Shown here piece by piece: positions 1 through 28,474 of a stretch of DNA of 35,876 nt; the first letter of the stretch is position 1, and each line of letters starts with the position of its first letter. The notes under the pieces were generated by a model. That model saw only the letters and a list, made by a program, of their open reading frames with translations, did not search any database and was not told the DNA's origin. Made by a program: the position numbers and the translations under genes. Location: NCBI GenBank assembly GCA_002189035.1, contig NEEC01000298.1, positions 1 through 35,876 of the forward strand, written 5' to 3'. This DNA comes from Utricularia gibba. Taxonomy: Eukaryota; Streptophyta; Magnoliopsida; Lamiales; Lentibulariaceae.

Positions 1-680
1 CGTGCCGGTCAGCTTCCGTGTTGAAAGCATCTTCGTCCGAGGATGCATCAGAGCTCGAATTATCGCCTTATATTAGCCTTCAGATGTGCCACAAATTGGC
101 CACCACGTTCGCGACGATGAGTTCGGAACACGAGAATCGACGCGATTGTGATTTTCGGCTTGCAAAAGATCTGGTTTTATTGGATGACGTGAAGTATGGG
201 TTTTCGAGGCGATCTCTGAACAAGCTCTGGGTGTGTCCTACCGCAGCCTCATGGTGGCCTCGCACACGTTCGGTATTTCGGCGATATCCTGAAATGATGA
301 GTCACGCTGCGCTCGCACCGTTTCGAACCCCTTTCCGTGCCGGTCAGCTTCCGTGTTGAAAGCATCTTCGTCCGAGGATGCATCAGAGCTCGAATTATCG
401 CCTTATATTAGCCTTCAGATGTGCCACAAATTGGCCACCACGTTCGCGACGATGCGACTCGGAACACGAGAATCGACGCGATTGTGATTTTCGCTTGCAA
501 AACATCTGTGTTTTATTGGGTGACGTGAAGTATGGGTTTTCGAGGCGATCTCTGAACAAGCTCTGGGTGTGTCCTACCCGCAGCCCTCATGGTGGCCTCG
601 CACACCGTTCGGCATCTCGTCGATATCTTGAAGATCAAGATGAGTCACGCTGCGCCCGGCATACCGTTTCGAACCCTTTC

Positions 681-1004
681 CGTGCCGGTCAGCTTCCGTG
701 TTGAAAGCATCTTCGTCCGAGGATGCATCAGAGCTCGAATTATCGCCTTATATTAGCCTTCAGATGTGCACAAATTGGCCACCACGTTCGCGACGATGAG
801 TTCGGAACACGAGAATCGACGCGATTGTGATTTTCGCTTGCAAAACATCTGCGTTTTATTGGGTGACGTGAAGTATGGGTTTTCGAGGCGATCTCTGAAC
901 AAGCTCTGGGTCCCTACCCCTATCAGCGACACCGTTCGGCATCTCGTCGATATCTTGAAGATCAAGATGAGTCACGCTGCGCCGGCATCCGTTTCGAACC
1001 CTTC
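681..1004 (+). repeat. Short monomer (324 bp) with an altered CCGCAGCC block
   Basis: Near 909-930 the usual GTGTGTCCCTACCCGCAGCC plus CATGGTGGCCTCGC block is replaced by GTCCCTACCCCTATCAGCGA before CACCGTTCGGC resumes. This otherwise near-invariant block is rarely disturbed in the regular arrays. Confidence 0.75.
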
Positions 1005-2022
1005 CGTGCCGGTCAGCTTCCGTGTTGAAAGCATCTTCGTCCGAGGATGCATCAGAGCTCGAATTATCGCCTTATATTAGCCTTCAGATGTGCCACAAAT
1101 TGGCCACCACGTTCGCGACGATGAGTTTTCGGAACACGAGAATCGACGCGATTGTGATTTTCGGCTTGCAAAAGATCTGCGTTTTATTGGATGACGTGAA
1201 GTATGGGTTTTCGATGCGATCTCTGAACAAGCTCTGGGTGTGTCCCCGCAGCCTCATGGTGGCTCGCGTTCGGTATTTTCGGCGATATCCTGAAAACCGT
1301 GATGAGTCACGCTGCGCCGGCATACCGTTTCGAACCCCTTTCCGTGCCGGTCAGCTTCCGTGTTGAAAGCATCTTCGTCCGAGGATGCATCAGAGCTCGA
1401 ATTATCGCCTTATAGCCTTCAGATGTGCCACAAATTGGCCACCACGTTCGCGACGATGCGACTCGGAACACGAGAATCGACGCGATTGTGATTTTCGCCT
1501 TGCAAAACATCTGCGTTTTATTGGGTGACGTGAAGTATGGGTTTTCGAGGCGATCTCTGAACAAGCTCTGGTGTGTCCCTACCGCAGCCTCATGGTGGCC
1601 TCGCACACCGTTCGGCATTCGTCGATATCTTGAAGATCAAGATGAGTCACGCTGCGCCCGGCATACCGTTTCGAACCCTTTCCGTGCCGGTCAGCTTCCG
1701 TGTTGAAAGCATCTTCGTCCGAGGATGCATCAGAGCTCGAATTATCGCCTTATATTAGCCTTCAGATGTGCCACAAATTGGCCACCACGTTCGCGACGAT
1801 GCGACTCGGAACACGAGAATCGACGCGATTGTGATTTTCGGCTTGCAAAATCTGCGTTTTATTGGGTGACGTGAAGTATGGGTTTTCGAGGCGATCTCTG
1901 AACAAGCTCTGGTGTGTCCTACCCGCAGCCTCATGGTGGCCTCGCACACCGTTCGGTATTTCGGCATATCCTGAAAACCGTGATGAGTCACGCTGCGCCG
2001 GCATACCGTTTCGAACCCTTTC

Positions 2023-2338
2023 CGTGCCGGTCAGCTTCCGTGTTGAAAGCATCTTCGTCCGAGGATGCATCAGAGCTCGAATTATCGCCTTATATTAGCC
2101 TTCAGATGTGCCACAAATTGGCCACCACGTTCGCGACGATGCGTTTCGGAACACGAGAATCGACGCGATTGTGATTTTCGCTTGCAAAACATCTGCGTTT
2201 TATTGGGTGACGTGAAGTATGGGTTTTCGAGGCGATCTCTGAACAAGCTCTGGGTGTGTCCTACCCGCAGCCTCATGGTGGCCTCGCACACCGTTCGGGC
2301 GATATCTGAAATTGAGTCATACCGTTTCGAACCCTTTC
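2023..2338 (+). repeat. Short monomer (316 bp) with a collapsed tail
   Basis: At about 2298-2325 the tail reads TTCGGGCGATATCTGAAATT then GAGTCATACCGTTTCG. The CGCTGCGCCCGGC segment is deleted between GAGTCA and TACCG. The TGAGTCA heptamer itself is kept. Confidence 0.8.
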
Positions 2339-3674
2339 CGTGCCGGTCAGCTTCCGTGTTGAAAGCTTCTTCGTCCGAGGATGCATCAGAGCTCGAATTA
2401 TCGCCTTAAGATGTGCCACAAATTGGCCACCACGTTCGCGACGATGCGACTCGGAACACGAGAATCGACGCGATTGTGATTTTCGCTTGCAAAATCTGCG
2501 TTTTATTGGGTGACGTGAAGTATGGGTTTTCGAGCGATCTCTGAACAAGCTCTGGGTGTGTCCCTACCAGCCTCATGGTGGCCTCGCACACCGTTCGGTA
2601 TTCGCGATATCTTGAAAAAGTGATGAGTCACGCTGCGCCGGCATACCGTTTCGAACCCCTTTCCGTGCCGGTCAGCTTCCGTGTTGAAAGCATCTTCGTC
2701 CGAGGATGCATCAGAGCTCGAATTATCGCCTTATATTAGCCTTCAGATGTGCCACAAATTGGCCACCACGTTCGCGACGATGCGACTCGGAACACGAGAA
2801 TCGACGCGATTGTGATTTTCGCCTTGCAAAACATCTGTTTTATTGGGTGACGTGAAGTATGGGTTTTCGAGGCGATCTCTGAACAAGCTCTGGTGTGTCC
2901 TACCCGCAGCCTCATGGTGGCCTCGCACACCGTTCGGCATTCGTCGATATCTTGAAAGATGAGTCACGCTGCGCCCGGCATACCGTTTCGAACCCTTCCG
3001 TGCCGGTCAGCTTCCGTGTTGAAAGCATCTTCGTCCGAGGATGCATCAGAGCTCGAATTATCGCCTTATATTAGCCTTCAGATGTGCCACAAATTGGCCA
3101 CACGTTCGCGACGATGAGTTTCGGAACACGAGAATCGACGCGATTGTGATTTTCGCTTGCAAAATCTGTTTTTATTGGATGACGTGAAGTATGGGTTTTC
3201 GAGCGATCTCTGAACAAGCTCTGGGTGTGTCCTACCCGCAGCCTCATGGTGGCCTCGCACACCGTTCGGTATTTCGATATCCTGAAAACCGTGATGAGTC
3301 ACGCTGCGCCGGCATACCGTTTCGAACCCCTTTCCGTGCCGGTCAGCTTCCGTGTTGAAAGCATCTTCGTCGAGGATGCATCAGAGCTCGAATTATCGCC
3401 TTATATTAGCCTTCAGATGTGCCACAAATTGGCCACCACGTTCGCGACGATGCGACTCGGAACACGAGAATCGACGCGATTGTGATTTTCGCTTGCAAAA
3501 CATCTGCGTTTTATTGGGTGACGTGAAGTATGGGTTTTCGAGGCGATCTCTGAACAAGCTCTGGGTGTGTCCCTACCCGCAGCCTCATGGTGGCCTCGCA
3601 CACGTTCGGTATTCGTCGATATCTTGAAATCAAGATGAGTCACGCTGCGCCGGCATACCGTTTCGAACCCTTTC

Positions 3675-3976
3675 CGTGCCGGTCAGCTTCCGTGTTGAAA
3701 GCTTCTTCGTCCGAGGATGCATCAGAGCTCGAATTATCGCCTTATATTAGCCTTCAGATGTGCCACAAATTGGCCACCACGTTCGCGACGATGCGTTGAC
3801 GACATACCGCGGAAAAGCGTTTTATTGGGTGACGTGAAGTATGGGTTTTCGATGCGATCTCTGAACAAGCTCTGGGTGTGTCCTACCCGCAGCCTCATGG
3901 TGGCCTCGCACACCGTTCGGTCGATATCTTGAAAGATGAGTCACGCTGCGCCCGGCATACCGTTTCGAACCCTTTC
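3675..3976 (+). repeat. Short monomer (302 bp) with a replaced middle segment
   Basis: After GCGACGATGCG, at about 3794-3818, the expected segment from ACTCGG to the AACATCTG block is replaced by roughly 20 bases (TTGACGACATACCGCGGAAA). The unit then resumes at AGCGTTTTATTGGG. About 45 bases are lost. The replacement is not obviously another part of the monomer. Confidence 0.85.
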
Positions 3977-6900
3977 CGTGCCGGTCAGCTTCCGTGTTGA
4001 AAGCATCTTCGTCCGAGGATGCATCAGAGCTCGAATTATCGCCTTATATTAGCCTTCAGATGTGCCACAAATTGGCCACCGTTCGCGACGATGCGACTCG
4101 GAACACGAGAATCGACGCGATTGTGATTTTCGCTTGCAAAAGATCTGCGTTTTATTGGTGACGTGAAGTATGGGTTTTCGAGCGATCTCTGAACAAGCTC
4201 TGGTGTGTCCCTACCCGCAGCCTCATGGTGGCCTCGCACACCGTTCGGTATTTCGGCGATATCCTGAAACCGTGATGAGTCACGCTGCGCCGGCATACCG
4301 TTTCGAACCCCTTTCCGTGCCGGTCAGCTTCCGTGTTGAAAGCATCTTCGTCCGAGGATGCATCAGAGCTCGAATTATCGCCTTATATTAGCCTTCAGAT
4401 GTGCCACAAATTGGCCACCACGTTCGCGACGATGCGACTCGGAACACGAGAATCGACGCGATTGTGATTTTCGCTTGCAAAACATCTGCGTTTTATTGGG
4501 TGACGTGAAGTATGGGTTTTCGAGGCGATCTCTGAACAAGCTCTGGTGTGTCCTACCCGCAGCCTCATGGTGGCCTCGCACACCGTTCGGCATCTCGTCG
4601 ATATCTTGAAGATCAAGATGAGTCACGCTGCGCCCGGCATACCGTTTCGAACCCTTTCCGTGCCGGTCAGCTTCCGTGTTGAAAGCATCTTCGTCCGAGG
4701 ATGCATCAGAGCTCGAATTATCGCCTTATATTAGCCTTCAGATGTGCCACAAATTGGCCACCACGTTCGCGACGATGCGACTCGGAACACGAGAATCGAC
4801 GCGATTGTGATTTTCGGCTTGCAAAACATCTGCGTTTTATTGGGTGACGTGAAGTATGGGTTTTCGAGGCGATCTCTGAACAAGCTCTGGTGTGTCCCTA
4901 CCCGCAGCCTCATGGTGGCCTCGCACACCGTTCGGTATTTCGGCGATATCCTGAAAACCGTGATGAGTCACGCTGCGCCGGCATACCGTTTCGAACCCCT
5001 TTCCGTGCCGGTCAGCTTCCGTGTTGAAAGCATCTTCGTCCGAGGATGCATCAGAGCTCGAATTATCGCCTTATATTAGCCTTCAGATGTGCCACAAATT
5101 GGCCACCACGTTCGCGACGATGCGACTCGGAACACGAGAATCGACGCGATTGTGATTTTCGCTTGCAAAACATCTGCGTTTTATTGGATGACGTGAAGTA
5201 TGGGTTTTCGAGCGATCTCTGAACAGCTCTGGGTGTGTCCTACCCGCAGCCTCATGGTGGCCTCGCACACCGTTCGGCATTCGTCGATATCTTGAAATCA
5301 AGATGAGTCACGCTGCGCCGGCATACCGTTTCGAACCCCTTCCGTGCCGGTCAGCTTCCGTGTTGAAAGCATTTCGTCCGAGGATGCATCAGAGCTCGAA
5401 TTATCGCCTTATATTAGCCTTCAGATGTGCCACAAATTGGCCACCACGTTCGCGACGATGCGTTTCGGAACACGAGAATCGACGCGATTGTGATTTTCGG
5501 CTTGCAAAAGATCTGCGTTTTATTGGATGACGTGAAGTATGGGTTTTCGAGCGATCTCTGAACAAGCTCTGGGTGTGTCCCTACCCGCAGCCTCATGGTG
5601 GCCTCGCACACCGTTCGGTATTTCGGCGATATCTGAAAACCGTGATGAGTCACGCTGCGCCGGCATACCGTTTCGAACCCCTTTCCGTGCCGGTCAGCTT
5701 CCGTGTTGAAAGCATCTTCGTCCGAGGATGCATCAGAGCTCGAATTATCGCCTTATATAGCCTTCAGATGTGCCACAAATTGGCCACCACGTTCGCGACG
5801 ATGCGACTCGGAACACGAGAATCGACGCGATTGTGATTTTCGGCTTGCAAAAATCTGCGTTTTATTGGATGACGTGAAGTATGGGTTTTCGAGCGATCTC
5901 TGAACAAGCTCTGGTGTGTTCCTACCCGCAGCCTCATGGTGGCCTCGCACACCGTTCGGTATCGGATATCCTGAAAACTGATGAGTCACGCTGCGCCCGG
6001 CATACCGTTTCGAACCCCTTTCCGTGCCGGTCAGCTTCCGTGTTGAAAGCATCTTCGTCCGAGGATGCATCAGAGCTCGAATTATCGCCTTATATTAGCC
6101 TTCAGATGTGCCACAAATTGGCCACCACGTTCGCGACGATGCGACGGAACACGAGAATCGACGCGATTGTGATTTTCGCTTGCAAAAATCTGCGTTTTAT
6201 TGGATGACGTGAAGTATGGGTTTTCGAGGCGATCTCTGAACAAGCTCTAGGTGTGTTCCTACCGCAGCCTCATGGTGGCCTCGCACACCGTTCGGCATTC
6301 GTCGATATCTTGAAGATCATGATGAGTCACGCTGCGCCGGCATACCGTTTCGAACCCTTTCCGTGCCGGTCAGCTTCCGTGTTGAAAGCATCTTCGTCCG
6401 AGGATGCATCAGAGCTCGAATTATCGCCTTATTTAGCCTTCAGATGTGCCACAAATTGGCCACCACGTTCGCGACGATGCGACTCGGAACACGAGAATCG
6501 ACGCGATTGTGATTTTCGCTTGCAAAACATCTGCGTTTTATTGGATGACGTGAAGTATGGGTTTTCGAGGCGATCTCTGAACAAGCTCTGGGTGTGTCCT
6601 ACCCGCAGCCTCATGGTGGCCTCGCACACCGTTCGGTATTTCGGCGATATCCTGAAATCGTGATGAGTCACGCTGCGCCGGCATACGTTTCGAACCCTTC
6701 CGTGCCGGTCAGCTTCCGTGTTGAAAGCATCTTCGTCCGAGGATGCATCAGAGCTCGAATTATCGCCTTATATTAGCCTTCAGATGTGCCACAAATTGGC
6801 CACCTTCGCGACGATGCGTTCGGAACACGAGAATCGACGCGATTGTGATTTTCGGCTTGCAAAAGATCTGCGTTTTATTGGATGACGTGAAGTATGGGTT

Positions 6901-8065
6901 TTCGAGCGATCTCTGAACAAGCTCTGGTGTGTCCCTACCCGCAGCCTCATGGTGGCCTCGCACACCGTTCGGTATTCGTCGATATCTTGAAAACCGTGAT
7001 GAGTCACGCTGCGCCGGCATACCGTTTCGAACCCTTTCCGTGCCGGTCAGCTTCCGTGTTGAAAGCATCTTCGTCCGAGGATGCATCAGAGCTCGAATTA
7101 TCGCCTTATATAGCCTTCAGATGTGCCACAAATTGGCCACCACGTTCGCGACGATGCGACTCGGAACACGAGAATCGACGCGATTGTGATTTTCGCCTTG
7201 CAAAACATCTGCGTTTTATTGGGTGACGTGAAGTATGGGTTTTCGAGGCGATCTCTGAACAAGCTCTGGTGTGTTCCCTACCCGCAGCCTCATGGTGGCC
7301 TCGCACACCGTTCGGCATTCGTCGATATCTGAAATCAAGATGAGTCACGCTGCGCCCGGCATACCGTTTCGAACCCTTCCGTGCCGGTCAGCTTCCGTGT
7401 TGAAAGCATCTTCGTCCGAGGATGCATCAGAGCTCGAATTATCGCCTTATATTAGCCTTCAGATGTGCCACAAATTGGCCACCACGTTCGCGACGATGCG
7501 ACTCGGAACACGAGAATCGACGCGATTGTGATTTTCGCTTGCAAAACATCTGCGTTTTATTGGATGACGTGAAGTATGGGTTTTCGAGGCGATCTCTGAA
7601 CAAGCTCTGGGTGTGTCCTACCCGCAGCCTCATGGTGGCCTCGCACACCGTTCGGTATTTCGGATATCTGAAAACCGTGATGAGTCACGCTGCGCCGGCA
7701 TACCGTTTCGAACCCCTTTCCGTGCCGGTCAGCTTCCGTGTTGAAAGCATCTTCGTCCGAGGATGCATCAGAGCTCGAATTATCGCCTTATATTAGCCTT
7801 CAGATGTGCCACAAATTGGCCACCACGTTCGCGACGATGCGACTCGGAACACGAGAATCGACGCGATTGTGATTTTCGCTTGCAAAACACTGTGTTTTAT
7901 TGGGTGACGTGAAGTATGGGTTTTCGAGGCGATCTCTGAACAAGCTCTGGGTGTGTTCCTACCCGCAGCCTCATGGTGGCCTCGCACACCGTTCGGTATC
8001 TCGTCGATATCTTGAAGATCAAGATGAGTCACGCTGCGCCCGGCATACCGTTTCGAACCCGTTTC

Positions 8066-8384
8066 CGTGCCGGTCAGCTTCCGTGTTGAAAGCATCTTCG
8101 TCCGAGGATGCATCAGAGCTCGAATTATCGCCTTATATAGCCTTCAGATGTGCCACAAATTGGCCACCACGTTCGCGACGATGCGGAACACGAGAATCGA
8201 CGCGATTGTGATTTTCGGCTTGCAAAACTGCGTTTTATTGACCGTTTTATCGATCCCTCTCTGAACAAGCTCTGGGTGTGTCCCTACCCGCAGCCTCATG
8301 GTGGCCTCGCACACCGTTCGGCATCTCGTCGATATCTGAAATGATGAGTCACGCTGCGCCGGCATACCGTTTCGAACCCCTTTC
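8066..8384 (+). repeat. Short monomer (319 bp) with an altered centre
   Basis: At about 8226-8262 the usual TGACGTGAAGTATGGG and TTTTCGAGGCG segment is replaced by TTGACCGTTTTATCGATCCC before CTCTGAACAAGC resumes. The ACTC of GCGACTCGG is also missing near 8184. The rest of the unit is normal. Confidence 0.8.
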
Positions 8385-11300
8385 CGTGCCGGTCAGCTTC
8401 CGTGTTGAAAGCATCTCGTCCGAGGATGCATCAGAGCTCGAATTATCGCCTTATATAGCCTTCAGATGTGCCACAAATTGGCCACGTTCGCGACGATGAG
8501 TTTCGGAACACGAGAATCGACGCGATTGTGATTTTCGGCTTGCAAAAGATCTGCGTTTTATTGGATGACGTGAAGTATGGGTTTTCGAGCGATCTCTGAA
8601 CAAGCTCTGGGTGTGTCCCTACCCGCAGCCTCATGGTGGCCTCGCACACCGTTCGGTATTTCGGCGATATCTGAAAATGATGAGTCACGCTGCGCCGGCA
8701 TACCGTTTCGAACCCTTTCCGTGCCGGTCAGCTTCCGTGTTGAAAGCATCTTCGTCCGAGGATGCATCAGAGCTCGAATTATCGCCTTATATTAGCCTTC
8801 AGATGTGCCACAAATTGGCCACCACGTTCGCGACGATGCGACTCGGAACACGAGAATCGACGCGATTGTGATTTTCGCTTGCAAAACATCTGCGTTTTAT
8901 TGGGTGACGTGAAGTATGGGTTTTCGAGGCGATCTCTGAACAAGCTCTAGGTGTGTTCCTACCCGCAGCCTCATGGTGGCCTCGCACACCGTTCGGCATT
9001 CGTCGATATCTTGAATCAAGATGAGTCACGCTGCGCCCGGCATACCGTTTCGAACCCTTTCCGTGCCGGTCAGCTTCCGTGTTGAAAGCATCTTCGTCCG
9101 AGGATGCATCAGAGCTCGAATTATCGCCTTATATTAGCCTTCAGATGTGCCACAAATTGGCCACCACGTTCGCGACGATGCGACTCGGAACACGAGAATC
9201 GACGCGATTGTGATTTTCGCCTTGCAAAACATCTGCGTTTTATTGGGTGACGTGAAGTATGGGTTTTCGAGGCGATCTCTGAACAAGCTCTGGTGTGTCC
9301 TACCCGCAGCCTCATGGTGGCCTCGCACACCGTTCGGCATTCGTCGATATCTTGAAAGATGAGTCACGCTGCGCCCGGCATACCGTTTCGAACCCTTCCG
9401 TGCCGGTCAGCTTCCGTGTTGAAAGCATCTTCGTCCGAGGATGCATCAGAGCTCGAATTATCGCCTTATATTAGCCTTCAGATGTGCCACAAATTGGCCA
9501 CCACGTTCGCGACGATGCGTTTCGGAACACGAGAATCGACGCGATTGTGATTTTCGGCTTGCAAAAGATCTGCGTTTTATTGGATGACGTGAAGTATGGG
9601 TTTTCGAGCGATCTCTGAACAAGCTCTGGGTGTGTCCCTACCCGCAGCCTCATGGTGGCCTCGCACACCGTTCGGTATTTCGGCGATATCCTGAAAACCG
9701 TGATGAGTCACGCTGCGCCCGGCATACGTTTCGAACCCCTTTCCGTGCCGGTCAGCTTCCGTGTTGAAAGCATCTTCGTCCGAGGATGCATCAGAGCTCG
9801 AATTATCGCCTTATATTAGCCTTCAGATGTGCCACAAATTGGCCACCACGTTCGCGACGATGCGACTCGGAACACGAGAATCGACGCGATTGTGATTTTC
9901 GCCTTGCAAAACATCTGCGTTTTATTGGGTGACGTGAAGTATGGGTTTTCGAGGCGATCTCTGAACAAGCTCTAGGTGTGTTCCTACCGCAGCCTCATGG
10001 TGGCCTCGCACACCGTTCGGCATCTCGTCGATATCTTGAGATCAAATGAGTCACGCTGCGCCGGCATACCGTTTCGAACCCTTTCCGTGCCGGTCAGCTT
10101 CCGTGTTGAAAGCATCTTCGTCCGAGGATGCATCAGAGCTCGAATTATCGCCTTATATTAGCCTTCAGATGTGCCACAAATTGGCCACCACGTTCGCGAC
10201 GATGCGACTCGGAACACGAGAATCGACGCGATTGTGATTTTCGCCTTGCAAAACATCTGCGTTTTATTGGGTGACGTGAAGTATGGGTTTTCGAGGCGAT
10301 CTCTGAACAAGCTCTGGGTGTCCTACCCGCAGCCTCATGGTGGCCGCACACCGTTCGGCATTCGTCGATATCTTGAAATCAAGATGAGTCACGCTGCGCC
10401 CGGCATACCGTTTCGAACCCCTTTCCGTGCCGGTCAGCTTCCGTGTTGAAAGCTTCTTCGTCCGAGGATGCATCAGAGCTCGAATTATCGCCTTATATTA
10501 GCCTTCAGATGTGCCACAAATTGGCCACCACGTTCGCGACGATGCGACGGAACACGAGAATCGACGCGATTGTGATTTTCGGCTTGCAAAAATCTGCGTT
10601 TTATTGGATGACGTGAAGTATGGGTTTTCGAGCGATCTCTGAACAAGCTCTGGGTGTGTCCCTACCGCAGCCTCATGGTGGCCTCGCACACCGTTCGGTA
10701 TTTCGATATCTGAATGAGTCACGCTGCGCCCGGCATACCGTTTCGAACCCCTTTCCGTGCCGGTCAGCTTCCGTGTTGAAAGCATCTTCGTCCGAGGATG
10801 CATCAGAGCTCGAATTATCGCCTTATATTAGCCTTCAGATGTGCCACAAATTGGCCACCACGTTCGCGACGATGCGGAACACGAGAATCGACGCGATTGT
10901 GATTTTCGGCTTGCAAAACATCTGCGTTTTATTGGGTGACGTGAAGTATGGGTTTTCGAGGCGATCTCTGAACAAGCTCTGGGTGTGTCCCTACCCGCAG
11001 CCTCATGGTGGCCTCGCACACGTTCGGCATTCGTCGATATCTTGAAATGATGAGTCACGCTGCGCCGGGCATACGTTTCGAACCCTTTCCGTGCCGGTCA
11101 GCTTCCGTGTTGAAAGCATCTTCGTCCGAGGATGCATCAGAGCTCGAATTATCGCCTTATATAGCCTTCAGATGTGCCACAAATTGGCCACCACGTTCGC
11201 GACGATGCGACTCGGAACACGAGAATCGACGCGATTGTGATTTTCGCTTGCAAAACATCTGCGTTTTATTGGATGACGTGAAGTATGGGTTTTCGAGCGA

Positions 11301-13120
11301 TCTCTGAACAAGCTCTGGGTGTGTCCCTACCCGCAGCCTCATGGTGGCCTCGCACACCGTTCGGCATTTCGGCGATATCTGAAAACCGTGATGAGTCACG
11401 CTGCGCGGCATACCGTTTCGAACCCTTTCCGTGCCGGTCAGCTTCCGTGTTGAAAGCATCTTCGTCCGAGGATGCATCAGAGCTCGAATTATCGCCTTAT
11501 ATTAGCCTTCAGATGTGCCACAAATTGGCCACCACGTTCGCGACGATGCGACTCGGAACACGAGAATCGACGCGATTGATTTTCGCTTGCAAAACATCTG
11601 CGTTTTATTGGGTGACGTGAAGTATGGGTTTTCGAGGCGATCTCTGAACAAGCTCTGGTGTGTTCCTACCCGCAGCCTCATGGTGGCCTCGCACACCGTT
11701 CGGTATTCGTCGATATCCTGAAATGATGAGTCACGCTGCGCCCGGCATACCGTTTCGAACCCTTTCCGTGCCGGTCAGCTTCCGTGTTGAAAGCATCTTC
11801 GTCCGAGATGCATCAGAGCTCGAATTATCGCCTTATATTAGCCTTCAGATGTGCCACAAATTGGCCACCACGTTCGCGACGATGCGACTCGGAACACGAG
11901 AATCGACGCGATTGTGATTTTCGCCTTGCAAAACATCTGCGTTTTATTGGGTGACGTGAAGTATGGGTTTTCGAGGCGATCTCTGAACAAGCTCTGGTGT
12001 GTCCTACCCGCAGCCTCATGGTGGCCTCGCACACCGTTCGGTATTTCGGATATCTGAAAACCGTGATGAGTCACGCTGCGCCCGGCATACCGTTTCGAAC
12101 CCCTTTCCGTGCCGGTCAGCTTCCGTGTTGAAAGCATCTTCGTCCGAGGATGCATCAGAGCTCGAATTATCGCCTTATATTAGCCTTCAGATGTGCCACA
12201 AATTGGCCACCACGTTCGCGACGATGTTTCGGAACACGAGAATCGACGCGATTGTGATTTTCGCTTGCAAAAGATCTGCGTTTTATTGGATGACGTGAAG
12301 TATGGGTTTTCGAGGATCTCTGAACAAGCTCTGGGTGTGTCCCTACCCGCAGCCTCATGGTGGCCTCGCACACCGTTCGGTATTTCGGCGATATCTGAAA
12401 ACCGTGATGAGTCACGCTGCGCCGGCATACCGTTTCGAACCCTTTCCGTGCCGGTCAGCTTCCGTGTTGAAAGCTCTTCGTCCGAGGATGCATCAGAGCT
12501 CGAATTATCGCCTTATTTAGCCTTCAGATGTGCCACAAATTGGCCACCACGTTCGCGACGATGCGACTCGGAACACGAGAATCGACGCGATTGTGATTTT
12601 CGCCTTGCAAAATCTGTTTTATTGGGACGTGAAGTATGGGTTTTCGAGGCGATCTCTGAACAAGCTCTGGTGTGTCCCTACCCGCAGCCTCATGGTGGCC
12701 TCGCACACCGTTCGGCATTCGTCGATATCTTGAAGATCAAGATGAGTCACGCTGCGCCCGGCATACCGTTTCGAACCCTTTCCGTGCCGGTCAGCTTCCG
12801 TGTTGAAAGCATCTTCGTCCGAGGATGCATCAGAGCTCGAATTATCGCCTTATATTAGCCTTCAGATGTGCCACAAATTGGCCACCACGTTCGCGACGAT
12901 GCGACTCGGAACACGAGAATCGACGCGATTGTGATTTTCGCCTTGCAAAACATCTGCGTTTTATTGGGTGACGTGAAGTATGGGTTTTCGAGGCGATCTC
13001 TGAAAGCTCTGGTGTGTCCTACCCGCAGCCTCATGGTGGCCTCGCACACCGTTCGGCATTCGGCGATATCTGAAATGTGATGAGTCACGCTGCGCCCGGC
13101 ATACCGTTTCGAACCCTTTC

Positions 13121-13445
13121 CGTGCCGGTCAGCTTCCGTGTTGAAAGCTTCGTCGAGCTCGAATTATCGCCTTATATTAGCCTTCAGATGTGCCACAAAT
13201 TGGCCACCACGTTCGCGACGATGCGACTCGGAACACGAGAATCGACGCGATTGTGATTTTCGGCTTGCAAAAGATCTGCGTTTTATTGGATGACGTGAAG
13301 TATGGGTTTTCGAGGCGATCTCTGAACAAGCTCTGGGTGTGTCCCTACCCGCAGCCTCATGGTGGCCTCGCACACCGTTCGGTATTCGTCGATATCTGAA
13401 AGTGATGAGTCACGCTGCGCCGGCATACCGTTTCGAACCCCTTTC
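13121..13445 (+). repeat. Short monomer (325 bp) with a ~20-bp deletion near its start
   Basis: The start reads GTTGAAAGCTTCGTCGAGCTCG, so the CTTCGTCCGAGGATGCATCA segment is mostly gone at about 13148-13155. Repeated TTCGTC and GAGC-like sequence at the join allows a slippage explanation. The remainder is intact. Confidence 0.8.
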
Positions 13446-16400
13446 CGTGCCGGTCAGCTTCCGTGTTGAAAGCATCTTCGTCCGAGGATGCATCAGAGCT
13501 CGAATTATCGCCTTATATTAGCCTTCAGATGTGCCACAAATTGGCCACCACGTTCGCGACGATGCGACTCGGAACAGAATCGACGCGATTGTGATTTTCG
13601 CCTTGCAAAACATCTGTTTTATTGGGTGACGTGAAGTATGGGTTTTCGAGGCGATCTCTGAACAAGCTCTAGGTGTGTTCCTACCCGCAGCCTCATGGTG
13701 GCCTCGCACACCGTTCGGCATTCGTCGATATCTTGAAGATCATGATGAGTCACGCTGCGCCCGGCATACCGTTCGAACCCTTTCCGTGCCGGTCAGCTTC
13801 CGTGTTGAAAGCTTCTTCGTCCGAGGATGCATCAGAGCTCGAATTATCGCCTTATATTAGCCTTCAGATGTGCCACAAATTGGCCACCACGTTCGCGACG
13901 ATGCGGAACACGAGAATCGACGCGATTGTGATTTTCGCTTGCAAAACATCTGCGTTTTATTGGATGACGTGAAGTATGGGTTTTCGAGCGATCTCTGAAC
14001 AAGCTCTGGGTGTGTCCCTACCCGCAGCCTCATGGTGGCCTCGCACACCGTTCGGTATTCGGCGATATCTGAAAACCGTGATGAGTCACGCTGCGCCGGC
14101 ATACGTTTCGAACCCCTTTCCGTGCCGGTCAGCTTCCGTGTTGAAAGCATCTTCGTCCGAGGATGCATCAGAGCTCGAATTATCGCCTTATATTAGCCTT
14201 CAGATGTGCCACAAATTGGCCACCACGTTCGCGACGATGCGACTCGGAACACGAGAATCGACGCGATTGTGATTTTCGGCTTGCAAAACATCTGCGTTTT
14301 ATTGGGTGACGTGAAGTATGGGTTTTCGAGGCGATCTCTGAACAAGCTCTGGGTGTGTCCTACCGCAGCCTCATGGTGGCCTCGCACACCGTTCGGCATT
14401 CGTCGATATCTTGAAGATCAAGATGAGTCACGCTGCGCCCGGCATACCGTTTCGAACCCCTTTCCGTGCCGGTCAGCTTCCGTGTTGAAAGCATCTTCGT
14501 CCGAGGATGCATCAGAGCTCGAATTATCGCCTTATATTAGCCTTCAGATGTGCCACAAATTGGCCACCACGTTCGCGACGATGCGACTCGGAACACGAGA
14601 ATCGACGCGATTGTGATTTTCGCCTTGCAAAACATCTGCGTTTTATTGGGTGATGACGTGAAGTATGGGTTTTTCGAGGCGATCTCTGAACAAGCTCTGG
14701 GTGTGTCCCTACCCGCAGCCTCATGGTGGCCTCGCACACCGTTCGGTATTCGTCGATATCTGAAATCAAGATGAGTCACGCTGCGCCGGCATACCGTTTC
14801 GAACCCTTTCCGTGCCGGTCAGCTTCCGTGTTGAAAGCATCTTCGTCCGAGGATGCATCAGAGCTCGAATTATCGCCTTATATTAGCCTTCAGATGTGCC
14901 ACAAATTGGCCACCACGTTCGCGACGATGCGACTCGGAACACGAGAATCGACGCGATTGTGATTTTCGCTTGCAAAACATCTGCGTTTTATTGGATGACG
15001 TGAAGTATGGGTTTTCGAGGCGATCTCTGAACAAGCTCTGGGTGTGTCCCTACCCGCAGCCTCATGGTGGCCTCGCACACCGTTCGGTATTTCGGCGATA
15101 TCCTGAAATGATGAGTCACGCTGCGCCGGCATACCGTTTCGAACCCCTTTCCGTGCCGGTCAGCTTCCGTGTTGAAAGCATCTTCGTCCGAGGATGCATC
15201 AGAGCTCGAATTATCGCCTTATATTAGCCTTCAGATGTGCCACAAATTGGCCACCACGTTCGCGACGATGCGACTCGGAACACGAGAATCGACGCGATTG
15301 TGATTTTCGCTTGCAAAACATCTGCGTTTTATTGGGTGACGTGAAGTATGGGTTTTCGAGGCGATCTCTGAACAAGCTCTAGGTGTGTTCCTACCGCGCC
15401 TCATGGTGGCCTCGCACACGTCGGCATTTCGTCGATATCTTGAAGATCAAGATGAGTCACGCTGCGCCCGGCATACCGTTTCGAACCCTTTCCGTGCCGG
15501 TCAGCTTCCGTGTTGAAAGCTTCTTCGTCCGAGGATGCATCAGAGCTCGAATTATCGCCTTATCTTAGCCTTCAGATGTGCCACAAATTGGCCACCACGT
15601 TCGCGACGATGAGTTTCGGAACACGAGAATCGACGCGATTGTGATTTTCGGCTTGCAAAAGATCTGCGTTTTATTGGATGACGTGAAGTATGGGTTTTCG
15701 AGCGATCTCTGAACAAGCTCTGGGTGTGTCCTACCCGCAGCCTCATGGTGGCCTCGCACACCGTTCGGTATTTCGGCGATATCCTGAAAACCGTGATGAG
15801 TCACGCTGCGCTCGGCATACCGTTTCGAACCCTTTCCGTGCCGGTCAGCTTCCGTGTTGAAAGCATCTTCGTCCGAGGATGCGAGCTCGAATTATCGCCT
15901 TATATTAGCCTTCAGATGTGCCAAAATTGGCCACCACGTTCGCGACGATGCGACTCGGAACACGAGAATCGACGCGATTGTGATTTTCGCTTGCAAAACA
16001 TCTGCGTTTTATTGGGTGACGTGAAGTATGGGTTTTCGAGGCGATCTCTGAACAAGCTCTGGTGTGTTCCTACCCGCAGCCTCATGGTGGCCTCGCACCG
16101 TTCGGCATCTCGTCGATATCTGAAGATCAAGATGAGTCACGCTGCGCCCGGCAGTTTCGAAGCCCGTTGTGCCGGTCAGCTTCCGTGTTGAAAGCATCTT
16201 CGTCCGAGGATGCATCAGAGCTCGAATTATCGCCTTATATTAGCCTTCAGATGTGCCACAAATTGGCCACCACGTTCGCGACGATGCGACTCGGAACACG
16301 AGAATCGACGCGATTGTGATTTTCGCCTTGCAAAACATCTGCGTTTTATTGGGTGACGTGAAGTATGGGTTTTCGAGGCGATCTCTGAACAAGCTCTGGT

Positions 16401-18862
16401 GTGTCCTACCCGCAGCCTCATGGTGGCCTCGCACACCGTTCGGTATTCGTCGATATCTTGAAATCCGTGATGAGTCACGCTGCGCTTACGTTTCGAACCC
16501 CTTTCGTGCCGGTCAGCTCCCGTGTTGAAAGCATTTCGTCCGAGGATGCATCAGAGCTCGAATTATCGCCTTATATTAGCCTTCAGATGTGCCACAAATT
16601 GGCCACCACGTTCGCGACGATGCGTTTCGGAACACGAGAATCGACGCGATTGTGATTTTCGCTTGCAAAAATCTGCGTTTTATTGGATGACGTGAAGTAT
16701 GGGTTTTCGAGCGATCTCTGAACAAGCTCTGGGTGTGTCCCTACCCGCAGCCTCATGGTGGCCTCGCACACCGTTCGGTATTCGGCGATATCCTGAAAAT
16801 GTGATGAGTCACGCTGCGCCGGCATACCGTTTCGAACCTTTCCGTGCCGGTCAGCTTCCGTGTTGAAAGCATCTTCGTCCGAGGATGCATCAGAGCTCGA
16901 ATTATCGCCTTATATTAGCCTTCAGATGTGCCACAAATTGGCCACCACGTTCGCGACGATGCGACTCGGAACACGAGAATCGACGCGATTGTGATTTTCG
17001 CCTTGCAAAACATCTGCGTTTTATTGGTGACGTGAAGTATGGGTTTTCGAGCGATCTCTGAACAAGCTCTAGGTGTGTTCCTACCCGCAGCCTCATGGTG
17101 GCCTCGCACACCGTTCGGTATTCGTCGATATCTTGAAATGATGAGTCACGCTGCGCCCCATACCGTTTCGAACCCCTTTCCGTGCCGGTCAGCTTCCGTG
17201 TTGAAAGCATCTTCGTCCGAGGATGCATCAGAGCTCGAATTATCGCCTTATATTAGCCTTCAGATGTGCCACAAATTGGCCACCACGTTCGCGACGATGA
17301 CTCGGAACACGAGAATCGACGCGATTGTGATTTTCGCTTGCAAAACATCTGCGTTTTATTGGGTGACGTGAAGTATGGGTTTTCGAGGCGATCTCTGAAC
17401 AAGCTCTGGGTGTGTCCCTACCCGCAGCCTCATGGTGGCCTCGCACACCGTTCGGTATTTATCTTGAAAAAGATGAGTCACGCTGCGCCGGCATACCGTT
17501 TCGAACCCCTTCCGTGCCGGTCAGCTTCCGTGTTGAAAGCCGTCCGAGGATGCATCAGAGCTCGAATTATCGCCTTATATAGCCTTCAGATGTGCCACAA
17601 ATTGGCCACCACGTTCGCGACGATGCGTTTCGGAACACGAGAATCGACGCGATTGTGATTTTCGCCTTGCAAAAATCTGCGTTTTATTGGATGACGTGAA
17701 GTATGGGTTTTCGAGCGATCTCTGAACAAGCTCTGGGTGTGTCCTACCCGCAGCCTCATGGTGGCCTCGCACACCGTTCGGTATTTCGGCGATATCCTGA
17801 AAAGTGATGAGTCACGCTGCGCCGGCATACCGTTTCGAACCCCTTTCCGTGCCGGTCAGCTTCCGTGTTGAAAGCATCTTCGTCCGAGGATGCATCAGAG
17901 CTCGAATTATCGCCTTATATTAGCCTTCAGATGTGCCACAAATTGGCCACCACGTTCGCGACGATGCGACTCGGAACACGAGAATCGACGCGATTGTGAT
18001 TTTCGGCTTGCAAAACATCTGCGTTTTATTGGGTGACGTGAAGTATGGGTTTTCGAGGCGATCTCTGAACAAGCTCTGGTGTGTCCTACCCGCAGCCTCA
18101 TGGTGGCCTCGCACACCGTTCGGTATTTCGATATCTTGAAAAGATGAGTCACGCTGCGCCCGGCATACCGTTTCGAACCCGTTCCGTGCCGGTCAGCTTC
18201 CGTGTTGAAAGCATCTTCGTCCGAGGATGCATCAGAGCTCGAATTATCGCCTTATATTAGCCTTCAGATGTGCCACAAATTGGCCACCACGTTCGCGACG
18301 ATGCGACTCGGAACACGAGAATCGACGCGATTGTGATTTTCGCTTGCAAAACATCTGTTTTATTGGGTGACGTGAAGTATGGGTTTTCGAGCGATCTCTG
18401 AACAAGCTCTGGTGTGTCCTACCCGCAGCCTCATGGTGGCCTCGCACACCGTTCGGTATTCGTCGATATCTTGAAATCAAATGAGTCACGCTGCGCCGGC
18501 ATACCGTTTCGAACCCTTTCCGTGCCGGTCAGCTTCCGTTTGAAAGCATCTTCGTCCGAGGATGCATCAGAGCTCGAATTATCGCCTTATATTAGCCTTC
18601 AGATGTGCCACAAATTGGCCACCACGTTCGCGACGATGCGACTCGGAACACGAGAATCGACGCGATTGTGATTTTCGCCTTGCAAAACATCTGCGTTTTA
18701 TTGGGTGACGTGAAGTATGGGTTTTCGAGGCGATCTCTGAACAAGCTCTGGTGTGTCCTACCCGCAGCCTCATGGTGGCCTCGCACACCGTTCGGCATCT
18801 CGTCGATATCTTGAAGATCAAGATGAGTCACGCTGCGCCCGGCATACCGTTTCGAACCCTTC

Positions 18863-19170
18863 CGTGCCGGTCAGCTTCCGTGTTGAAAGCTCTTCGTCCG
18901 AGGATGCATCAGAGCTCGAATTATCGCCTTATTAGCCTTCAGATGTGCCACAAATTGGCCACCACGTTCGCGACGATGCTCGGAACACGAGAATCGACGC
19001 GATTGTGATTTTCGCCTTGCAAAACATCTGCGTTTTATTGGGTGACGTGAAGTATGGGTTTTCGAGGCGATCTCTGAACAAGCTCTGGGTGTGTCCCCCG
19101 CAGCCTCATGGTGGCCTCGCACACCGTTCGGCATTCGATCCTGAAAATGAGTCTCGTTTCGAACCCCTTC
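18863..19170 (+). repeat. Short monomer (308 bp) lacking most of its 3' segment
   Basis: Near 19130-19160 the tail reads CGGCATTCGATCCTGAAAAT then GAGTCTCGTTTCGAACC. The ACGCTGCGCCCGGCATACC block and part of the gate between TCG and GATATC are missing. CCTA is also missing from the GTGTGTCCCTACCC block near 19094. This is one of the few copies that loses the TGAGTCA motif. Confidence 0.8.
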
Positions 19171-22100
19171 CGTGCCGGTCAGCTTCCGTGTTGAAAGCTT
19201 CTTCGTCCGAGGATGCATCAGAGCTCGAATTATCGCCTTATATTAGCCTTCAGATGTGCCACAAATTGGCCACCACGTTCGCGACGATGCGACTCGGAAC
19301 ACGAGAATCGACGCGATTGTGATTTTCGGCTTGCAAAATCTGCGTTTTATTGGATGACGTGAAGTATGGGTTTTCGAGCGATCTCTGAACAAGCTCTGGG
19401 TGTGTCCCTACCCGCAGCCTCATGGTGGCCTCGCACACCGTTCGGTATTCGGCGATATCTGAAAGTGATGAGTCACGCTGCGCCGGCATACCGTTTCGAA
19501 CCCTTTCCGTGCCGGTCAGCTTCCGTGTTGAAAGCATCTTCGTCCGAGGATGCATCAGAGCTCGAATTATCGCCTTATATTAGCCTTCAGATGTGCCACA
19601 AATTGGCCACCACGTTCGCGACGATGCGACTCGGAACACGAGAATCGACGCGATTGTGATTTTCGCCTTGCAAAACATCTGCGTTTTATTGGGTGACGTG
19701 AAGTATGGGTTTTCGAGCGATCTCTGAACAAGCTCTGGTGTGTTCCTACCCGCAGCCTCATGGTGGCCTCGCACACCGTTCGGCATTCGTCGATATCTTG
19801 AAGATCATGATGAGTCACGCTGCGCCCGCATACCGTTTCGAACCCTTTCCGTGCCGGTCAGCTTCCGTGTTGAAAGCTTCTTCGTCCGAGGATGCATCAG
19901 AGCTCGAATTATCGCCTTATATTAGCCTTCAGATGTGCCACAAATTGGCCACCACGTTCGCGACGATGACTCGGAACACGAGAATCGACGCGATTGTGAT
20001 TTTCGCCTTGCAAAACATCTGCGTTTTATTGGGTGACGTGAAGTATGGGTTTTCGAGGCGATCTCTGAACAAGCTCTGGTGTGTTCCTACCCGCAGCCTC
20101 ATGGTGGCCTCGCACACCGTTCGGCATTCGTCGATATCTTGAAATCAAGATGAGTCACGCTGCGCCCGGCATACCGTTTCGAACCCCTTTCCGTGCCGGT
20201 CAGCTTCCGTGTTGAAAGCATCTTCGTCCGAGGATGCATCAAGCTCGAATTATCGCCTTATATAGCCTTCAGATGTGCCACAAATTGCCACCACGTTCGC
20301 GACGATGACTCGGAACACGAGAATCGACGCGATTGTGATTTTCGCTTGCAAAACATCTGCGTTTTATTGGGTGACGTGAAGTATGGGTTTTCGAGGCGAT
20401 CTCTGAACAAGCTCTGGTGTGTCCTACCCGCAGCCTCATGGTGGCCTCGCACACCGTTCGGCATTCGTCGATATCTTGAAATCAATGAGTCACGCTGCGC
20501 CGGCATACCGTTTCGAACCCTTTCCGTGCCGGTCAGCTTCCGTGTTGAAAGCATCTTCGTCCGAGGATGCATCAGAGCTCGAATTATCGCCTTATAGCCT
20601 TCAGATGTGCCACAAATTGGCCACCACGTTCGCGACGATGCGACTCGGAACACGAGAATCGACGCGATTGTGATTTTCGCCTTGCAAAACATCTGCGTTT
20701 TATTGGGTGACGTGAAGTATGGGTTTTCGAGGCGATCTCTGAACAAGCTCTGGGTGTGTCCCTACCCGCAGCCTCATGGTGGCCTCGCACACCGTTCGGC
20801 ATCTCGTCGATATCTGAAGATCAAGATGAGTCACGCTGCGCACCGTTTCGAACCCGTTCCGTGCCGGTCAGCTTCCGTGTTGAAAGCTTCTTCGTCCGAG
20901 GATGCATCAGAGCTCGAATTATCGCCTTATATTAGCCTTCAGATGTGCCACAAATTGGCCACCACGTTCGCGACGATGAGTTTCGGAACACGAGAATCGA
21001 CGCGATTGTGATTTTCGCTTGCAAAACTGCGTTTTATTGGATGACGTGAAGTATGGGTTTTCGATGCGATCTCTGAACAAGCTCTGGGTGTGTCCCTACC
21101 CGCAGCCTCATGGTGGCCTCGCACACCGTTCGGTATTTCGGCGATATCCTGAAACCGTGATGAGTCACGCTGCGCCGGCATACCGTTTCGAACCCCTTTC
21201 CGTGCCGGTCAGCTTCCGTGTTGAAAGCATCTTCGTCCGAGGATGCATCAGAGCTCGAATTATCGCCTTATATTAGCCTTCAGATGTGCCACAAATTGGC
21301 CACCACGTTCGCGACGATGCGACTCGGAACACGAGAATCGACGCGATTGTGATTTTCGCCTTGCAAACATCTGCGTTTTATTGGTGACGTGAAGTATGGG
21401 TTTTCGAGGCGATCTCTGAACAAGCTCTGGTGTGTCCTACCCGCAGCCTCATGGTGGCCTCGCACACCGTTCGGCATCTCGTCGATATCTGAAATCTGAT
21501 GAGTCACGCTGCGCCCGGCATACCGTTTCGAACCCTTTCCGTGCCGGTCAGCTTCCGTGTTGAAAGCTTCTTCGTCCGAGGATGCATCAGAGCTCGAATT
21601 ATCGCCTTATATTAGCCTTCAGATGTGCCACAAATTGGCCACCACGTTCGCGACGATGCGACTCGGAACACGAGAATCGACGCGATTGTGATTTTCGCCT
21701 TGCAAAACATCTGCGTTTTATTGGTGACGTGAAGTATGGGTTTTCGAGGCGATCTCTGAACAAGCTCTGGTGTGTCCTACCCGCAGCCTCATGGTGGCCT
21801 CGCACACCGTTCGGCATTCGTCGATATCTTGAAAAATGAGTCACGCTGCGCCGGCATACCGTTTCGAACCCCTTTCCGTGCCGGTCAGCTTCCGTGTTGA
21901 AAGCATCTTCGTCCGAGGATGCATCAGAGCTCGAATTATCGCCTTATATTAGCCTTCAGATGTGCCACAAATTGGCCACCACGTTCGCGACGATGCGACT
22001 CGGAACACGAGAATCGACGCGATTGTGATTTTCGCCTTGCAAAACATCTGCGTTTTATTGGGTGACGTGAAGTATGGGTTTTCGAGGCGATCTCTGAACA

Positions 22101-23206
22101 AGCTCTGGGTGTGTCCCCTACCCGCAGCCTCATGGTGGCCTCGCACACCGTTCGGCATTCGTCGATATCTTGAAGATCAAGATGAGTCACGCTGCGCCCG
22201 GCATACCGTTTCGAACCCCTTCCGTGCCGGTCAGCTTCCGTGTTGAAAGCATCTTCGTCCGAGGATGCATCAGAGCTCGAATTATCGCCTTATATTAGCC
22301 TTCAGATGTGCCACAAATTGCCACCACGTTCGCGACGATGCGACTCGGAACACGAGAATCGACATCGATTGTGATTTTCGCCTTGCAAAACATCTGCGTT
22401 TTATTGGGTGACGTGAAGTATGGGTTTTCGAGGCGATCTCTGAACAAGCTCTGGTGTGTCCTACCCGCAGCCTCATGGTGGCCTCGCACACCGTTCGGTA
22501 TTCGGCGATATCCTGAAAATGATGAGTCACGCTGCGCCCGGCATACCGTTTCGAACCCCTTTCCGTGCCGGTCAGCTTCCGTGTTGAAAGCATCTTCGTC
22601 CGAGGATGCATCAGAGCTCGAATTATCGCCTTATATTAGCCTTCAGATGTGCCACAAATTGGCCACCACGTTCGCGACGATGCGACTCGGAACACGAGAA
22701 TCGACGCGATTGTGATTTTCGCCTTGCAAAACATCTGCGTTTTATTGGGTGACGTGAAGTATGGGTTTTCGAGGCGATCTCTGAACAAGCTCTGGGTGTG
22801 TCCCTACCCGCAGCCTCATGGTGGCCTCGCACACCGTTCGGCATCTCGTCGATATCTTGAAGATCTGATGAGTCACGCTGCGCCCGGCATACCGTTTCGA
22901 ACCCTTTCCGTGCCGGTCAGCTTCCGTGTTGAAAGCATCTTCGTCCGAGGATGCATCAGAGCTCGAATTATCGCCTTATATTAGCCTTCAGATGTGCCAC
23001 AAATTGGCCACCACGTTCGACGATGCGACTCGGAACGAGAATCGACGCGATTGTGATTTTCGCCTTGCAAAACATCTGCGTTTTATTGGGTGACGTGAAG
23101 TATGGGTTTTCGAGGCGATCTCTGAACAAGCTCTGGTGTGTTCCTACCCGCAGCCTCATGGTGGCCTCGCACACCGTTCGGCATTTCGGATATCTTGAAG
23201 ATCAAG

Positions 23207-23344
23207 TTATGAGTATATGCGCCCGGCATGTGCCACAAATTGGCCACCACGTTCGCGACGATGCGAACTCTTTCACGCCGTCGAGCGCGATTGTGTGATT
23301 TTCGCATTGCGTCCGAACATGCATGCGTTTTAGCTCGACGTGAT
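23207..23344 (+). repeat. First breakpoint cluster of the scrambled segment
   Basis: The unit tail TTATGAGTATATGCGCCCGG runs to GGCAT at 23229 and then jumps to the core GTGCCACAAATTGG, omitting the anchor and about 100 bases. After GACGATGCG the sequence degenerates (AACTCTTTCACGCCGTCGAG) and then contains a partial echo of the GCGATTGTGATTTTCG block with inserted bases. The normal order resumes at ATCGCCTTATATTAGCC. Confidence 0.85.
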
Positions 23345-23550
23345 CGCCTTATATTAGCCTTCAGATGTGCCACAAATTGGCCACACGTTCGCGACGATGC
23401 GACTCGGAACACGAGAATCGACGCGATTGTGATTTTCGCCTTGCAAAAATCTGCGTTTTATTGGTGACGTGAAGTATGGGTTTTCGAGGCGATCTCTGAA
23501 CAAGCTCTGGTGTGTCCCTACCCGCAGCCTCATGGTGGCCTCGCACACCG

Positions 23551-23841
23551 TTCGGCATATCTCGCGCGATATTTCGAACCCTTGAAAAGATCAAGATGAG
23601 TCACGCTGCGCCGGCATACCGACTCGGAACACGAGAATCGACGCGATTGTGATTTTCGCTTGCAAAACATCTGCGTTTTATTGGGTGACGTGAAGTATGG
23701 GTTTTCGAGGCGATCTCTGAACAAGCTCTGGTGTGTTCCTACCCGCAGCCTCATGGTGGCCTCGCACACCGTTCGGCATTCGTCGATATCTGAAATCAAG
23801 ATGAGTCACGCTGCGCCCGGCATACCGTTTCGAACCCTTTC
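23551..23841 (+). repeat. Out-of-register joins, partial monomer lacking its anchor
   Basis: Near 23561-23588 a TTTCGAACCCTT fragment, normally at the end of the unit, is embedded inside the CTCGTCGATATC tail. At 23620 GGCATACC joins directly to GACTCGGAACACG, skipping the anchor through the core. The remaining 220 bases are an ordinary B-like unit. The fragments read like copies aligned to each other at the wrong offset. Confidence 0.8.
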
Positions 23842-24171
23842 CGTGCCGGTCAGCTTCCGTGTTGAAAGCATCTTCGTCCGAGGATGCATCAGAGCTCGAA
23901 TTATCGCCTTATTAGCCTTCAGATGTGCCACAAATTGGCCACCACGTTCGCGACGATGCGACTCGGAACACGAGAATCGACGCGATTGTGATTTTCGCTT
24001 GCAAAACATCTGCGTTTTATTGGTGACGTGAAGTATGGGTTTTCGAGGCGATCTCTGAACAAGCTCTGGTGTGTCCCTACCGCAGCCTCATGGTGGCCTC
24101 GCACACCGTTCGGTATTCGTCGATATCTTGAAATCGATGAGTCACGCTGCGCCGGCATACCGTTTCGAACC

Positions 24172-24562
24172 CTGATTTGTCGTCCTTCAGAGCAAAACAT
24201 CTGCGTTTTATTTTGGTGAAAACGTTTTATTGGGTGACGTGAAGTATGGGTTTTCGAGGCGATCTCTGAACAAGCTCTGGGTGTGTCCCTACCTCATGGT
24301 GGCCCGCAGTTCCGGCGATCATGAGTGCTGCGCTCCGTTTCACAGCCGTGTTGAAAGCATCTTCGGCATCTCGAATCGATATCTTGATGTGCCAGATCAC
24401 GATGCGATGAGAGAATCGACGCGATTGTGATTTTCGCTTGCAAAACATCTGCGTTTTATTGGGTGACGTGAAGTACCGATTTCAAGACCCGCACCTCCTT
24501 TCGGCGGCGATATCTTGAAATCGATGAGTCACGCTGCGCCCGGCATACCGTTTCGAGCTTCC
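24172..24562 (+). repeat. Heavily scrambled satellite fragments
   Basis: CGTTTCGAACCCTGATTTGT leads into a local double copy of the GTTTTATT element (about 24204-24234). Then ACCTCATGGTGGCCCGCAG has its blocks in inverted order, and GTGTTGAAAGCATCTTCGGC blends the head and tail of the monomer. At 24474 GAAGTACCGATTTCAAGACC is not recognisable satellite for about 25 bases. Register returns at GCTTCCGTGTTGAAAGC near 24557. Confidence 0.8.
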
Positions 24563-25184
24563 GTGTTGAAAGCTCTTCGTCCGAGGATGCATCAGAGCTC
24601 GAATTATCGCCTATATTAGCCTTCAGATGTGCCACAAATTGGCCACCACGTTCGCGACGATCGGAACACGAGAATCGACGCGATTGTGATTTTCGCTTGC
24701 AAAACATCTGCGTTTTATTGGATGACGTGAAGTATGGGTTTTCGAGCGATCTCTGAACAAGCTCTGGTGTGTCCTACCCGCAGCTCATGGTGGCCTCGCA
24801 CACCGTTCGGTATTCGGCGATATCTGGCCACCACGTTCGCGACGATGCATCAGTTTCGGAACACGACCACGACGATCGACGCGATTGTGATTTTCGCCTT
24901 GCAAAACATCTGCGTTTTATTGGATGACGTGAAGTATGGGTTTTCGAGGCGATCTCTGAACAAGCTCTATTGGCATGACGTTCGAAGTCCGATGGTCACG
25001 CTTTTTCGAGTGCCGGTCAGCTTCCGTGTTGAAAGCATCTTCGTCCGAGGATGCATCAGAGCTCGAATTATCGCCTTATATTAGCCTTCAGATGTGCCAC
25101 AAATTGGCCACCACGTTCGCGACGATGCGACTCGGAACACGAGAATCGACGCGATTGTGATTTTCGCCTTGCAAAACATCTGCG

Positions 25185-25660
25185 TGGGTGACCTCGCAAG
25201 CACCCGTCATCGGTATCTCGTCGATATCTTGATGATCTGATAAACGTGAGCTGAGCATCACGCTGAATTATCGCCTTATATTAGCCTTCAGATGTGCCAC
25301 AAATTGGCCACCACGTTCGCGACGATGCGAACACCGACGCGATTTCGGCGCAAAAGATCTGCCGTGTCAGCGATTCCAAGCTCTGTTGTCCCTACCCGCA
25401 GCCTCATGGTGGCCTCGCACACCGTTCGGTATCGTATCCGAGTGATGCACGCTGCGCCGGCATACCGAGTGCTCAGAATTATCGAGCTCGAATTATCGCC
25501 TTATAGCCTTCAGATGTGCCACAAATTGGCCACCACGTTCGCGACGATGCGACTCGGAACACGAGAATCGACGCGATTGTGATTTTCGCTTGCAAAACAT
25601 CTGCAAAACTCTGCGCCCGGCATACGTTTCGAACCCCTTTTTCGAGTGCCGGTCAGCTTC
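25185..25660 (+). repeat. Compressed cores ~200-220 bp apart in the scrambled segment
   Basis: Core motifs at about 25094, 25294, 25516 and 25730 are only 200-222 bp apart because different portions between them are missing or blended. Examples are CATCTGCGTGGGTGACCTCG at 25178, ATCTGCCGTGTCAGCGATTC at 25357, and a doubled GCAAAACATCTGCAAAACTC near 25590. The core itself and the ACGAGAATCGACGCGATTG block are mostly untouched. Confidence 0.75.
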
Positions 25661-28450: not shown

Positions 28451-28474
28451 CCGGCATCCGTTTCGAACCCTTTC

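Follow-up and report, generated by a model that had tools for sequence, protein, structure and literature searches.

The stretch analysed here (the window) is a complete contig, C53, of 35,876 bases from a Utricularia gibba assembly of 100,091,633 bases in 516 contigs. It is mostly covered by one tandem satellite family with a period of about 335 to 344 bases (Tandem Repeats Finder), whose units span 347 columns, lie head-to-tail and come in two forms, A and B. Most of the small deletions that these units carry are very probably a product of the assembly, in which a consensus of mixed repeat copies omitted the disputed bases. On the forward strand, an array with a heavy deletion load (positions 1 to 22,908; 10.3 bases deleted per monomer in 61 scored) is followed by a scrambled zone (23,207 to 28,412) and by an array with a lighter load (28,432 to 35,876; 4.7 bases deleted per monomer in 18 scored). 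The sole window monomer free of both deletions and insertions relative to the 347-column unit, a B form, lies at 34,137 to 34,483. A low-deletion A-form monomer is found at 4,703 to 5,047 (345 bases, 2 gaps), and a gapped one at 2,708 to 3,042 (335 bases, 12 gaps, including columns 237 and 254 to 258, which differ between A and B). A single unit of just 145 bases between anchors occupies positions 33,649 to 33,793, with regular surroundings.

Forms A and B are told apart by columns 234 to 259 and a few others. Neighbouring pure monomers are of unlike form in 27 of 35 pairs, consistent with a loose A-B dimer. By these markers, the 79 scored monomers of the window comprise 25 A, 30 B, and 24 mixed units, while mixed-marker monomers make up 2 of 71 in three 10-kb pieces of contig C32 (within 1 to 38 kb). 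The same satellite is present on further contigs, and a 31-base core of it has 1,102 exact matches across the assembly (530 + 572). Satellite matches extend over about 111 kb at C244:3,294,300-3,405,668 (loci L001 to L003, L012, L017, and L020), reaching the end of this 3.4-Mb contig (3,405,668 bases), and the stretches sampled from that end are satellite. Passages of PMC8333044 describe satellite repeats as absent from the putative centromeres of U. gibba; given that statement, the family at the C244 end is worth a look in the centromeres of this species. The region C32:18,000-37,999 (L009 and L010) is cleaner, with 2.8 and 3.4 deletions per monomer, and offers a better source for a satellite reference. 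The B monomers of the three C32 pieces mostly have G at columns 295 and 299, where G is rare in the window.

The anchors delimit 370 intervals, and 300 of these were scored as monomers: 79 lie in the window and 221 at other loci. Intervals outside 300 to 355 bases, window starts between 22,600 and 28,520, and locus L007 were excluded. In the window set or the other-loci set, 49 of the 347 columns have a minor base in at least 5% or gaps in at least 8% of monomers. The 24 columns treated as biallelic were set from the 221 monomers outside the window. Monomers were aligned to the column-wise allele set, MAFFT having shifted the gaps of column 249 elsewhere. Because alignment cannot locate the lost base within a slidable run, the comparison of deletion events with a null carries the claim made below, with ties resolved in favour of biallelic columns for observed and simulated events alike. 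A base-by-base count was dropped, as its result for the 713 deleted bases depended on the tie rule, with 29 assigned to biallelic columns when ties went against them and 355 when ties went in favour.

Loss of bases is strongly one-sided. Within positions 1 to 22,908, the 61 monomers have 628 deleted and 11 inserted bases, in agreement with the original prediction that units here are shortened and hardly ever lengthened. The whole window has 713 deleted and 13 inserted bases (9.0 deletions per monomer), the other loci 1,388 and 55, and deletions exceed insertions in all 11 other scored loci. The prediction further held that deletions coincide with polymorphic sites and proposed an alignment of the monomers as the check. 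In that alignment, 219 of 352 single-base events (62%) in 1 to 22,908 touch biallelic columns, compared with 733 of 6,003 (12%) for uniform random single-base deletions. Two-base events do so in 19 of 49 cases (17% to 21% in the nulls) and events of at least three bases in 32 of 44 (28% to 31% in the nulls). Although the pattern had been placed in the first 22,908 positions, where it does occur, it continues past them at 28.5 to 35.9 kb with the lighter load given above.

Three states (either of two bases, or none) had been reported at many sites of 1 to 22,908, and all 21 strings quoted for them were found by exact count. Counts are given here for the whole window and, after the slash, for occurrences starting before 22,908. 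The first site has CTCTAGGTGTGTTCC (11/6), CTCTGGGTGTGTCCC (30/23), and the gapped form CTCTGGTGTGTCC (28/19). The others have TTGGGTGACG (55/38), TTGGATGACG (31/23), and TTGGTGACG (11/4); TCGAGGCG (71/44), TCGATGCG (6/3), and TCGAGCG (25/19); CGGCTTGC (22/17), CGCCTTGC (45/24), and CGCTTGC (35/26); CAAAACATCTG (72/43), CAAAAGATCTG (13/10), and CAAAATCTG (7/5); GCGCCCGGC (43/28), GCGCTCGGC (1/1), and GCGCCGGC (45/30); and AGCATCTTC (76/52), AGCTTCTTC (16/9), and AGCTCTTC (4/2). Thus every quoted example is present, but GCGCTCGGC just once in the window. An example of a three-form site is CTCTGGTGTGTCCTAC as compared with CTCTAGGTGTGTTCCTAC and CTCTGGGTGTGTCCCTAC; counted with the three shorter strings, the gapped share in the window is 28 of 69. 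At the first site the gapped form had been described as the commonest, but it occurs 28 times in the window, compared with 30 and 11 times for the two full forms.

Many gapped sites lie in or next to runs of one base, as would be expected if plain homopolymer deletion errors of long reads had been left in the repeats after polishing, and passages of PMC6298384 describe residual consensus errors as chiefly homopolymer deletions, affecting runs of more than 4. However, seven runs of 3 to 4 bases without polymorphism are shortened in just 5 of 553 copies, compared with 6 to 46 of 79 copies for each of nine runs with a polymorphic column inside or adjacent. Gap rate is weakly correlated with run length (r = 0.20), and simulated deletions restricted to homopolymers touch a biallelic column in only 1,035 of 6,232 cases (17%), against the 62% observed, which makes this explanation very unlikely. 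One run is an exception: CCC at columns 276 to 278 is shortened in 43 of 79 copies, with no second base present at 3% or more. A rare T allele, aligning at column 277, has 44 genome-wide occurrences in the flanks of this site; in two stretches that were picked because they hold it, 15 of 23 A copies carry T. The 36 A copies of the window have 1 T, 9 C, and 26 gaps at the site, so that the T allele accounts for part of the shortening. It does not explain the gaps in L006 and L008, two stretches composed of A monomers, because these have 36 C, 16 gaps, and no T.

Which bases are lost depends on the composition of the array. In mixed arrays (the window, C244, and C32 at 40 to 50 kb), A monomers lack A/B-diagnostic bases in 83 of 384 cells, whereas in the all-A arrays of C82 and C102 (L006, C82:18,000-27,999, and L008, C102:8,000-17,999; 37 of 37 monomers of form A) they lack them in 5 of 222 (Fisher p = 1e-12). 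Column 199 is the reverse case, missing in 23 of 37 monomers of all-A arrays and in 1 of 64 of mixed arrays. Mixed-marker monomers are also richer in other deletions (43 compared with 220 monomers from ten sources, medians 9 and 4, p = 8e-7); this pooled test omits L006 and L008, which contain no mixed-marker monomers.

Satellites do undergo insertions and deletions, and the gaps could be inherited, true deletion variants spread through unequal exchange. Gaps with no second base seen occur among the 37 all-A monomers at column 120 (16 monomers), column 194 (15), and column 276 (10), and could be such length variants; these columns count against a consensus origin, and either true length variants or fully erased second alleles must be assumed for them. 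Against inheritance stand the one-sided loss in the window and the near confinement of diagnostic gaps in A monomers to mixed arrays. Moreover, more closely related monomers of the window are no more alike in gap state (Spearman -0.08 for 300 A pairs and -0.03 for 435 B pairs, not significant), although this is a weak test with few informative sites. Inheritance is a very unlikely source of the pattern as a whole; real deletions in the plant are unlikely, most of the deletions being probably due to assembly, and a minority may be true length variants.

Not all polymorphic sites are targeted; at column 234, a T/C site with a minor allele of 45%, only 3% of the 79 window monomers lack the base. 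This column has the most balanced alleles, and neither its T nor its C equals a neighbouring base. Among the 300 monomers, the 15 columns at which one allele equals its neighbour, here called slidable, are gapped more than the 8 others (means 0.188 and 0.057, p = 0.0025). A disputed base is thus prone to loss if one of its alleles matches the adjacent base, while elsewhere one allele is mostly kept.

A graph consensus modelled on pbdagcon largely reproduced this behaviour. It splits each mismatch into an insertion and a deletion, pushes gaps to the right, and scores an edge by its read count minus half the depth. Input came from 19 monomers, 7 A and 12 B, none of them with more than one deletion. 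In single trials, pure A and pure B inputs were returned without change, and an even mix came out four bases short. Over 400 consensuses of even mixes with 30 reads, 5.69 bases were lost and 0.15 gained per monomer; 2.54 bases per monomer were deleted in an earlier simulation of uneven mixes, the higher value coming with even mixes and a higher error. Across all 347 columns, the simulated profile correlates with that of the window at r = 0.78 (Spearman 0.68 for the 23 biallelic columns), and column 234 is spared in it as well (0.02 compared with 0.03 observed) because neither of its alleles equals a neighbour. A plain majority vote was rejected as a model, since it deletes 12.79 bases per monomer, empties column 234 (0.55), and gives a Spearman of 0.44.

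The mixed-array contrast would also be predicted if mismatched bases were excised and not replaced in the plant when A and B strands pair during recombination, which should leave one-sided deletions at A/B-different bases in mixed arrays only. Were this the case, the satellite would shrink exactly where its subfamilies differ. However, excision does not predict that the most balanced column is spared while slidable sites lose bases, nor does it predict the scrambled zone or the shift of load along a single contig, C32, from 2.8 to 4.4 deletions per monomer in the three 10-kb pieces (1 to 38 kb) to 6.8 at 40 to 50 kb. We regard it as extremely unlikely, even more so than homopolymer error or inheritance.

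In the scrambled zone, short strings that are not among the 12-mers of the 300 scored monomers interrupt intact pieces of monomer. A first score of these joining strings (23 of 35) differed little from shuffles (425 of 435 compared with 402). For the subset of 12 strings that span one to three times their own length, chosen after the first result, the score was 235 of 245 compared with 214.8 in shuffles (standard deviation 2.9), and 9 of these 12 are complete in-order subsequences of the stretch that they replace (300 shuffles: mean 0.8, maximum 4). The zone has gained bases too, because 9 of the 35 strings are longer than their own span. Judging from the sequence, it is probably a consensus of badly registered copies. 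Locus L007 (C372:30,000-39,999) is likewise irregular, with 31% to 94% of the bases per kb in known satellite 12-mers.

Some coding sequence elsewhere in the assembly reads open. The best RPB2 match lies inside an open frame of 509 amino acids (an RPB2 exon), and two mitochondrial cox1 matches on C515 are free of stops, a point in favour of an assembly origin: at the deletion rate of the satellite, about 1 base in 40, such frames could not stand. Stops occur in 5 of 12 RPB2-family matches, which were unused as evidence because the search reads across introns. Five weaker cox1-family matches (on C213, C409, C505, C244, and C1), among 7 in all, also have internal stops and were likewise set aside; these five are probably nuclear copies of mitochondrial DNA. 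Parts of PMC5516982 report the U. gibba genome at 101 Mb, a cox1 gene with a LAGLIDADG intron, and the mitochondrial unitig_87 circularised at 270,037 bases.

The original prediction attributed the gaps to the omission of disputed bases when mixed copies are merged into a consensus, and the comparison of mixed with all-A arrays, the homopolymer control, and the graph simulation support it. In such an assembly, noisy long reads of several satellite copies would be averaged into a single consensus, the mixture arising from A and B units out of register by one unit or from copies of different arrays. An aligner that scores a mismatch as an insertion plus a deletion and slides gaps would turn a slidable site into two separate optional bases, each carried by about half of the reads; the path that skips both would be shorter and would often win, so that both alleles would be lost. 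Where neither allele equals a neighbour, the alleles would remain alternative branches and one would be retained. Badly registered copies would yield the scrambled zone. We infer mixed reads as the cause and a real pipeline of pbdagcon/HGAP type; HGAP as the assembler is a guess from the name 'unitig' alone.

Besides the three columns of the all-A arrays, several points weigh against a consensus of mixed copies. The evidence is drawn from assembled contigs and simulation; the graph consensus is a re-implementation in the style of pbdagcon, and the monomers fed into it were taken from this very assembly. The simulated 5.69 deletions per monomer fall short of the 9.0 in the window, columns 258 and 124 carry gaps without being slidable, and the excess of deletions in mixed-marker monomers is weak within the window (24 compared with 55 monomers, medians 8 and 7, p = 0.06). 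Genome-wide, the gapped form of the first quoted site is again not the commonest, with 114 occurrences compared with 657 and 123 for the full forms (other intermediate forms uncounted).

With the artefact removed, the satellite itself is real and ordinary, with nothing unusual about it. Satellite sequence taken from noisy-read assemblies can, however, miss bases at precisely the informative sites, and bias is to be expected in consensus monomers, subfamily trees, probe design, and estimates of indel evolution based on such contigs. Other assemblies can be screened for this without reads, by looking for deletions with nearly no insertions, on differing columns, only where both forms co-occur. 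In its alternating subfamilies the family resembles other plant tandem satellites, with head-to-tail units of 347 bp, two forms that mostly alternate, and an array reaching the end of a 3.4-Mb contig. Passages of PMC7545148 describe how the collapse of alleles yields a mosaic consensus with frameshifting errors. The window is similar to such mosaics of collapsed alleles or repeats (of pbdagcon/HGAP type) in that mixed monomers accompany the missing bases. A search of literature listings found no statement of the slidable-mismatch rule. Unlike in the collapsed-allele mosaic, the mixed copies here are satellite units, and the dropped bases obey that rule.

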